From contig JAAYPK010000004.1 of NCBI GenBank assembly GCA_012519845.1, positions 1 to 36,878 of the forward strand: DNA of 36,878 bases, read 5' to 3'. Positions 24,693 through 26,375 of this stretch are shown here, one piece after another. Below the pieces are notes generated by a model. The model searched no databases. It saw nothing but the letters and a program-made list of their open reading frames with translations, and was not told the DNA's origin. This DNA is from Clostridiales bacterium. Its GTDB lineage: Bacteria; Bacillota; Clostridia; Clostridiales; Clostridiaceae. A program made the position numbers and the translations under genes. Positions within the stretch are counted from its first letter, which is position 1, and every line of letters starts with the position of its first letter.

Positions 24693-25904
24693 ATGAAGAA
24701 GAAAAAGATTATTGTTATTGTTGCAATTGCTTTGGTGTCATTATTAGGTGGAACTACATATCAATATACTTCCTATGGACAGTATAAAAATAAAGTTAAT
24801 AATGCTATAGAGCATAATGAATATGATTATCTTAAAACTTTAGTTAATGATAATTTAAAACTTAATGTATTTAAAAAAATATATTTTAATAATGAATTAA
24901 CTAATAAATTAAATAACAAATTAGATAGTATTCTTCAAGAAGCTAAAGAAGAAGATGGAGATTTAGACAATTATTTAGAGTCTGTAGAAAGTATTAAAGA
25001 ATACGATGTTGTACAAGATAAGGTGGAAAATATTAATAATAATATTGAATTTTTGATTAAATATAAAGAAGCTGTTAATTTATTTAAAAGTGAAAAATAT
25101 ATAGAAGCGTATAAAGCTTTCACTTTATTAACAGATATTCCAAGTGAATGTAGTGAATATAAAGATAAGATAAATAAGTATAAAACAGATTCAAAGGAAA
25201 GTATAAAAGGTTCGATTTTTATTAAGGTAGACTTTTTAATAGAAAAAAATCAATATACTGAGGCTAAGGAATTATTAGACGGGGTTAGTGACATTTTAGG
25301 GGATAATGATGAATTTGTTAAAAAATTAACTGAAGTATATAAATTAGAAGAAAAATATAGTAGCGATGAAAAGAAAAAAGAAGAGTTAAAAAAAGCAGAG
25401 GAAGAAGAAAAGAAGAAAGAAGAAGAAGCTCTAGAAAATAAAATAAATGAAGCAGAAAGTGATAAAAATGCATTAACTTCATTAAATACTAATAATATAA
25501 ATTCTCTAAATATAGTAAGTGATACAAATAATTTTGTATATGTTGATTTAAGTACACAAACAATGAATATTTATAATGGAGAAGTGAATAAATGGAACTT
25601 GGTATCATCATTTTCTATATCTTCTGGAGTAAATGGATCTGAAACGCCAAAAGGAGTAACAAAAGTATCAAATTCAAAGGGACCATGGTATTTTGATGAA
25701 GATTATAATGAGGGAGCAAAATATTGGGTTAGAATGGCAAATGGTGTTTTATTTGAATCTATTCTATTTGCAGAAGATAAAAGTACTGTAGTTAATGGCA
25801 CATTAGGAACTCCTGCCTCTGATGGAACCGTTAGATTATCAGAAGAAAATGCTAAATGGTTTTATAGTAATATTAAGTCAGGAACAAAAGTTATAATAAA
25901 ATAA
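24693..25904 (+). CDS. Membrane-anchored L,D-transpeptidase-like protein with altered active site
   Basis: 403 residues with GGGGAGGA before the ATG. N-terminal signal anchor (about 4-25), then an all-helical external region (about 30-230) with a TPR-like unit (KSEKYIEAYKAFTLL) and an acidic/Lys coiled coil (about 225-262; EEEKKKEEEALENKINEAES). The C-terminal part (about 283-403) has the YkuD fold features: VDLSTQTMNIYNGE, SSGVNGSETPKGV, GPWYFDE, and GTPASDGTVRLSEENAKWFY. Active relatives have FHS, then SHGCVRL. Here these are FES (Glu355), Asp377 and Thr379: both His and the nucleophilic Cys are replaced. The frame is intact, so it is not a decayed gene; it is probably a non-catalytic wall-binding protein. 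Confidence 0.82.
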   Translation: MKKKKIIVIVAIALVSLLGGTTYQYTSYGQYKNKVNNAIEHNEYDYLKTLVNDNLKLNVFKKIYFNNELTNKLNNKLDSILQEAKEEDGDLDNYLESVESIKEYDVVQDKVENINNNIEFLIKYKEAVNLFKSEKYIEAYKAFTLLTDIPSECSEYKDKINKYKTDSKESIKGSIFIKVDFLIEKNQYTEAKELLDGVSDILGDNDEFVKKLTEVYKLEEKYSSDEKKKEELKKAEEEEKKKEEEALENKINEAESDKNALTSLNTNNINSLNIVSDTNNFVYVDLSTQTMNIYNGEVNKWNLVSSFSISSGVNGSETPKGVTKVSNSKGPWYFDEDYNEGAKYWVRMANGVLFESILFAEDKSTVVNGTLGTPASDGTVRLSEENAKWFYSNIKSGTKVIIK

Positions 25905-26111
25905 TAATTAGAAAAGAGGGGTAGTAAAAACTAAGAGAGTAGTTTAGTAGAAGTTAGAATAGAAACTAATAAAGAAAGTGACTCTTTGATAGAATTACTC
26001 AAACAAACCTATAATTAAAGAAATTTGTGATTTCTATCCACTTCTCTTATCTATTACTCTTAGTTCTGCACATCCCAACAGTTCTTCTCTATCAAAATCC
26101 CTGGCGGAGTT
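25903..26111 (-). ncRNA. Candidate structured RNA with pseudoknot, likely read from the - strand
   Basis: A gene-free segment between convergent genes. It contains GC-richer patches unlike other spacers (CCCTGGCGGAG, TCTGCACATCCC). Arms pair over the whole length: 25929-25937 with 26057-26065 (AACTAAGAG / CTCTTAGTT), 25950-25954 with 26040-26044, 25959-25965 with 26031-26037, and GGGG at 25918 with CCC at 26074. A further 9-bp pair, TTTGATAGA (25985-25993) with TCTATCAAA (26088-26096), crosses these, i.e. a pseudoknot. The - strand is favoured: TTCAAA (26141-26146), 17 bp, TTTAAT (26118-26123) with TGG extension would start near 26111, and the 3' end (about 25903) is U-rich. Size, conservation-like patches and a clostridial host recall the raiA-motif RNA, but I cannot confirm this. 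Confidence 0.5.
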
Positions 26112-26375
26112 TCATATATTAAACCATACTACAATTATTATTTGAAGTATTAATATTGTAGGACCACCAATATAAAATAGAGGATGTTTTGTTTTATGTC
26201 TAAAAGTATACATGCCTAATAGCATTCCAATGCTCCCACCTAAAACAGCTAGTCCAATTAATGTAGATTCTTTTATTCTCCATTTTTTATGAATTGCTTT
26301 CTGTTTATCAATGTACATAAAAATAAATGATATAAAATTAATTAATAATAAAAAAAATATTACAAATCTATTCAT
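26112..26375 (-). CDS. DUF1294 membrane protein
   Basis: 87 residues, with AGGTAGG before the ATG on the - strand. Three membrane helices (about 4-20, 38-58, 68-85). Family signature present: YIDKQKAIHKKWRIKESTLI then LGGSIGMLLGMYTFRHKTKH. Function unknown. It is divergent from feoA, separated by 179 bp that also holds the Fur site; an AT-rich TATAAT on the - strand near 26420 may be its promoter. Its 3' end converges on the structured RNA region. Confidence 0.9.
   Translation of the reverse strand: MNRFVIFFLLLINFISFIFMYIDKQKAIHKKWRIKESTLIGLAVLGGSIGMLLGMYTFRHKTKHPLFYIGGPTILILQIIIVVWFNI

Follow-up and report, generated by a model that had tools for sequence, protein, structure and literature searches.

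The window analyzed here is a stretch of 36,878 nucleotides from a Clostridiales bacterium of the Clostridiaceae (assembly GCA_012519845.1, contig JAAYPK010000004.1). The original prediction had placed a pseudoknotted, structured RNA in a 207-bp gap of this window, between two convergent genes. We find the gap at 25905-26111, between a YkuD ORF on the plus strand and a DUF1294 ORF on the minus strand, and it holds no long open frame, the longest stop-free run in 25881-26140 being 49 codons. The genes and the parts of the element that lies between them are as follows.

24693..25904, plus strand: flanking gene, YkuD L,D-transpeptidase ORF (ORF and protein-domain assignment).
25909..26091, no strand assigned: whole repeat copy, 183 bp from TA to TA, an imperfect palindrome with internal hairpins (similarity to seven other places of the genome, ends compared with other copies, and fold; bounds set by eye).
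25911..25969, plus strand: left arm, purine-rich, pairing with the right arm and containing blocks 25929-25937, 25950-25954 and 25959-25965 (perfect pairs checked, fold).
25985..25993, plus strand: left half of the crossing helix, within a segment common to two sister copies, L002 and L004 (sister-copy comparison).
26006..26060, minus strand: arm and core recognized by sequence model R2 (59.1 bits, E 9.1e-9; the window copy is one of the 20 training copies of R2).
26011..26039, minus strand: core GGATA and hairpin 1 (AGAAAT..ATTTCT), whose closing C-G pair is lost in the window copy (comparison of cores).
26031..26089, plus strand: right arm, pyrimidine-rich, the complement of the purine-rich arm units, containing blocks 26031-26037, 26040-26044 and 26057-26065 (pair check, arm analysis).
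26088..26096, plus strand: right half of the crossing helix, crossing the element end and without partner in both sister copies (pair check, sister-copy comparison).
26112..26375, minus strand: flanking gene, DUF1294 protein ORF (ORF and protein-domain assignment).

Checking the four pairings that had been listed for this spacer, we found each of them perfectly complementary. The best predicted structure is a single long imperfect hairpin bearing small side hairpins, and TA stands at both ends of the copy (25909-25910 and 26090-26091). Taken singly, the window copy shows only a marginal excess of pairing over chance. The spacer contains two 9-mer inverted pairs; over 1000 dinucleotide shuffles the mean was 0.30, and 6.5% of the shuffles had at least two. 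The fold z value is -1.7 on the plus strand (8 of 200 shuffles equally good) and -2.7 on the minus strand (0 of 200). We take the structure to go beyond chance because other copies exist in the genome.

The crossing helix, which had been read as a pseudoknot, did not survive as a structural feature. Its right half passes the element end at 26091 and runs into the flank. The sister copies L002 and L004 keep the left half with one base changed in each, and neither has a partner for it within 160 bases. With its right half in the flank and its partner missing in both sister copies, we reject the pseudoknot. The minus-strand promoter proposed at 26118-26146 falls inside the DUF1294 ORF, and it is absent among the three promoter-like sites found by our scan (2.3 expected in shuffles). 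A TTGATA-18-TATAAT sequence with 11 of 12 promoter letters lies within the element on the plus strand (25986-26015), in a scan whose total was not above chance; by eye, the same site is also present in L004.

Using the window element as a query, we found seven other matching places in its own genome, with E values from 2.5e-13 to 1.2e-4. One matched copy, used as a new query, gave further copies, including complete short ones with inverted ends. Altogether, the genome carries about 30 other full or partial copies besides the window copy. The shortest two-armed copies measure about 40 bp and the longest, the window copy, 183 bp; one 48-bp copy has a perfect stem. The copies have two end types, TAGAGAAGAAC and TAAGTAAGAAC. 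The end pattern TAGAGAAGAACTAAGAGA, allowing up to three mismatches, matched 65 times compared with 23 times for its reversed control, and 27 of the 65 had at most two mismatches; three matches inside ORFs were treated as chance. A sequence model of one element end, built from 15 own copies (model R1), gave 23 matches in this genome and one weak match each in six of the 67 other genomes of the genus. One of these six, in G060, is a heptad-armed copy. Thus, dispersal and palindromy are observed directly, and the elements have the MITE features of being short, non-coding, multi-copy and inverted at the ends.

The element does not mark one conserved locus. The DUF1294 gene is present in 57 of 68 genomes of the genus, its own genome counted. 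From the 56 other genomes that bear it, 29 loci were examined, and in none does the transpeptidase gene or feoAB lie less than about 1.5 kb from the DUF1294 gene. The spacer was non-syntenic at all 29, which rules out a single conserved locus. None of these loci has the spacer, and no empty site was found among them. For this reason, insertion is something that we infer. Outside its own genome, the window query, run over 40 relatives, gave just pieces of 24-43 bases, in four genomes. Plasmids held short pieces of at most 48 bases. A phage source was rejected, since phages gave no match; the end pattern matched one viral contig, in which a second arm was not visible by eye in 401 bp. A 23-base pattern of end plus core had no match in a genome contig database, from which near records may be omitted.

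Searching 206 genomes of the family with model R1, we found seven matches in G183, a genome of another genus. The four G183 matches that we inspected have the same core, GGATA plus a hairpin, and quite different arms. We describe the wider family with a second model, R2, which comprises the heptads and the core and was built from 20 copies of four genomes. Its matches, the training copies included, number 12 in the own genome, at least 25 in G183, at least 25 in G188 and 13 in G189, in a search of 225 genomes of the order. Any match at E ≤ 1e-3 was seen in 23 of the 225, most of which gave no more than one or two weak matches. When 391 genomes sampled evenly across the class were searched, the own genome was the sole match at E ≤ 1e-5; G183, G188 and G189, whose R2 matches surpass that threshold, evidently lie outside this sample. 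For comparison, we retrieved 20 stretches each for G183 and G188, out of the at least 25 matches in each, and all 13 for G189. Mean identity among the copies over core-spanning matches was 84.8% in G188/G189 and 83.5% in G183.

The anatomy of the family is as follows: two inverted arms of tandem seven-base units close on a core and on one or two more hairpins. The core consists of GGATA and a hairpin of 6-7 bp with a three-base loop. By eye, its GGATAA resembles half a DnaA box. The core hairpin is mostly AGAAATC-GATTTCT in the own genome, (A/G)AAAATC-GATTTTC in G183, and AAAACTC-GAGTTTT in G188 and G189. Its stem has at least six pairs in 8 of 14 own copies, 19 of 20 in G183, 19 of 20 in G188 and 10 of 13 in G189. 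Among 28 distinct hairpins from 67 copies, we find compensatory pair differences at pair 3 (A-T 17, C-G 5), pair 6 (A-T 16, G-C 9) and pair 7 (A-T 15, G-C 3), as raw counts of differences that fall mostly between genomes and hence represent few independent events. The core hairpin changes in a compensatory manner between genomes.

The seven-base period is present at the level of the family, in the arms upstream of the core pooled over copies. These arms gave a z value of 5.7 for period 7 in 13 own copies, and of 11.8 at lag 7 and 8.8 at lag 14 in nine copies of three other genomes. The own downstream arms showed no clear period (z 1.6 at lag 7). We also compared the upstream and downstream arms for complementarity. 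Within a genome, it was 13.8 in G183 and 15.2 in G188/G189, against 8.5-8.7 after shuffling; between G183 and the others, it was 7.9-9.0, i.e., at the shuffled level. Unit sequences differ between genomes and the arms still pair, so the palindrome is maintained, by selection or by a copying mechanism. The arm code is not cleanly private to a genome, because the own and the G188/G189 arms cross-complement in part (10.2 and 11.1). Pairing between the arms of own copies is weak (11.6 for the same copy, 12.0 for other copies and 8.2 for shuffled arms; one of eight at 14 or above). Several copies are predicted to fold as a long stem with two or three hairpins, and others are less clear.

Altogether, the feature in the window is very probably a degraded copy of a palindromic repeat that is non-coding, dispersed, MITE/REP-like in the broad sense and non-autonomous in itself. 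Its dispersal, together with arms particular to each genome, argues for spread inside individual genomes. The copies would spread as mobile DNA that depends on an enzyme supplied elsewhere and is recognized in folded form, and the arm sequence of a given genome would be set by a copy that newly became dominant there. In the own genome, old copies may persist where their hairpin serves as a bidirectional terminator between convergent genes, or where it harmlessly replaces one.

We checked the placement of the copies with respect to the neighboring genes, which were called by a longest-ORF rule and not taken from annotation. The set comprises 30 copies, the window copy included, hand-picked from R1, BLAST and pattern matches, one-armed ones among them; one copy lacks a left gene, leaving 29 that were classed, and two touch an ORF end. 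Of these 29, 17 lie in convergent spacers, 12 in tandem and none in divergent ones. Three one-armed cores first omitted (C31, C56 and C76, all tandem, C31 overlapping a 76-aa ORF) bring the convergent share to 17 of 32. In comparison, a 685-kb sample of the genome has 306 spacers of at least 40 bp, of which 30 are convergent, 44 divergent and 232 tandem. Fisher tests gave p values of 2e-9 for the convergent and 0.02 for the divergent class, with the spacer of the window taken out of the convergent baseline count (29, not 30). Thus, a concentration in convergent spacers is observed directly in the own genome.

This placement raises the question of whether the family consists of bidirectional terminators that are held by selection at gene ends and multiplied via duplication rather than transposition. 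We consider this possible, though on balance doubtful. Consistent with it, a terminator-like hairpin is present on one strand or both in 26 of the 29 convergent spacers that lack the element (on both in 21), and in 12 of the 17 convergent spacers with an element, the best such hairpin of at least one strand lies inside the element. In addition, a stricter finder saw no terminator outside the element across these 17 spacers. On the other side, 4 of the 17 have the best hairpin of one strand or both outside the element as bounded, 3 have it only there, and 2 of the 17 have none; since one best hairpin per strand was retained, weaker ones outside the element could be hidden. The stricter finder, run on the element-bearing spacers, saw a terminator in 8 of 17. 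The window copy itself has one weak hairpin before T-rich sequence, of -6.3 kcal/mol and on one strand, and no terminator by scan, which falls short of a bidirectional intrinsic terminator; several sister copies do have a hairpin followed by a T tract on both strands. A terminator role for this copy is weak because a good hairpin with a T tract was not found.

The relatives also argue against a family of terminators. Among the copies that could be classed there (18 of 20 in G183, 18 of 20 in G188 and 12 of 13 in G189), convergent placement was seen for 2 of 18, 5 of 18 and 5 of 12, respectively, and other spacers at the same loci were convergent in 2 of 15, 3 of 8 and 3 of 9 cases. The convergent bias holds in the own genome and not in the three relatives, and a terminator role would therefore be at most a local outcome.

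Returning to the reading as a non-autonomous mobile repeat, we searched for candidate enzymes. One candidate is a Y1 (HUH) transposase that moves the repeat as folded single-stranded DNA, in the manner of a REP/REPIN-like element. We regard this particular mechanism as unlikely. In its favor, all three copy-rich relatives have Y1_Tnp matches (5, 7 and 15 across G183, G188 and G189, 27 in total). In the two long Y1 proteins that we scanned, the C-terminal domain is DnaA-like, with a score under the curated cut-off. In G188, a 325-aa Y1 protein with such a domain is encoded about 300 bp from a copy, an adjacency that could be chance at such copy number. Moreover, among G183 copies in tandem spacers, 13 of 15 have their core on the strand opposite to that of the genes, a bias that is missing in G188 (5 opposite, 4 same) and G189 (2 opposite, 3 same). 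Against the mechanism, the own assembly, which is 89% complete, lacks Y1 (PF01797). The loci of 12 of the 27 Y1 matches, when searched for copies, gave one good copy and one weak match (E 0.0018). In addition, passages of PMC6006769 state that REP-like sequences were not found near genes of the DnaA-tailed Y1 subclass.

A bolder version of the same idea is that the heptad-armed palindromes are DNA substrates of DnaA-tailed Y1 (HUH) transposases (TnpA-Y1 subclass 2.1). At the base of the folded core hairpin, the enzyme would recognize TTATCC as a half-site, the core GGATAA being like half a DnaA box, and the founder copy of each genome would renew both seven-base arms at once. We consider this a long shot.

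Movement as a MITE of IS630/Tc1 type, with TA target duplication, appears quite improbable. The inverted ends agree with it, as do the two end types, which are like the left and right ends of an insertion sequence, and in 21 of 40 arms the 16-base end is directly bordered by TA on its outer side. In the remaining 19 arms, TA is shifted away or absent. The own genome lacks the DDE_3 transposase of IS630 (PF13358), for which 3 of 14 control genomes gave a match. In L080, where a pair of ends lies 1.28 kb apart, no transposase is found in between. The lack of empty sites, and the modular build and variable ends of the copies in the relatives, also count against this type of movement.

A conserved structured RNA gene or riboswitch-like RNA at this locus, either raiA or a new family, is hardly credible: the fold on the minus strand and the structure maintained across genomes would fit it, but the copies are dispersed on both strands, the neighborhood is not conserved, the crossing helix is not conserved, the arms vary independently within the genome and Rfam gives no match. 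In the Rfam search, the window had no match at gathering score, and the segment at a relaxed threshold gave six matches, with E values from 0.7 to 9.4, all far below gathering. With no match at either threshold, raiA, which we take to belong to the 4227 families searched, and other known RNAs are ruled out. We also checked whether the two arms of a copy change together, as the prediction of an RNA had implied; within the own genome, they mutate independently. The arms of one copy were alike at 12.05 of 16 bases, compared with 11.83 of 16 between copies (n = 20 copies, permutation p 0.22), in a set that retains three barely recognizable left arms (C94, C121 and C96, with 6 of 16 mismatches). 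In 6 of the 20 copies, one site or more carries the same change in both arms. Overall, coupled arm change was not found within the own genome. In summary, the original prediction was right that a structured, non-coding element lies between the convergent genes and wrong about its kind, which is a dispersed repeat copy and no RNA gene at a conserved locus. The element may act as RNA or as DNA.

The heptad-armed repeat is real, of a known broad kind and an unusual build, and it is not a pseudoknotted RNA gene. Like REP, BIME and REPIN sequences and other small intergenic repeats (MITEs, BOX and RUP), it is short, intergenic, multi-copy, palindromic, modular and confined to few genomes. Unlike them, it has tandem seven-base arms and is without an established cognate transposase. 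Seven-base units also build the repeat stem P6b of the Nostoc trnL intron (Class I TDNGATT and Class II NNTGAGT), as described in the portion of PMC4476775 that we consulted. That stem likewise consists of seven-base units and their complements, with lineage-specific units, a constant structure and side stem-loops; it lies within a cyanobacterial group I intron, whereas the heptad family is a dispersed repeat of Clostridia. The TAACTGA heptamers of Beggiatoaceae, Cyanobacteria and Bacteroidetes are tandem and intergenic as well; according to the passages seen of PMC4679880, they differ in being direct repeats, mostly just upstream of start codons in the main genome, and those passages describe no palindrome or core hairpin. 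Clop-1 of C. perfringens and Clot-1 of C. tetani, from excerpts of PMC2267715, are small structured intergenic stem-loop families of clostridia too, a likeness that we draw from description and not from sequence. We found no description of the heptad-armed family in titles, abstract starts or passages of the literature collection searched, which lacks most subscription papers.

If the reading as a mobile palindromic repeat is true, the arm sequence has been swapped in each genome while the pairing, the seven-base period and the core hairpin were kept, which would make the family a natural experiment on the requirements of a mobile hairpin. The family also connects scattered reports of seven-base repeat stems with dispersed palindromes, and the genome of the window provides a case of repeats that often occupy terminator positions between convergent genes.

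Several further observations concern the copies and their surroundings. Several copies in G183, G188 and the own genome are located no more than 200 bp from a contig end. This points to a repeat that interrupts assembly and to true copy numbers above those counted. In G188, locus L220 has an extra heptad array of a different unit type (AAAGTTC/AAATATC) about 100 bp downstream of the core, and G183 loci L175 and L243 have AATTGAC-type arrays. In three G183 loci (L178, L237 and L240), the arm is adjoined by a small hairpin rich in GC, which reads AAAGGGC-ACA-GCC or similar on the opposite strand, with a T run between. A second hairpin, GGAAGTC-ACA-GACTTCC, with the same ACA loop, lies about 50-60 bp upstream of the core in G183 loci L241, L245, L246, L247, L251 and L253. 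Variants of this hairpin occur at L239 and L244, and the hairpin units appear as if stacked.
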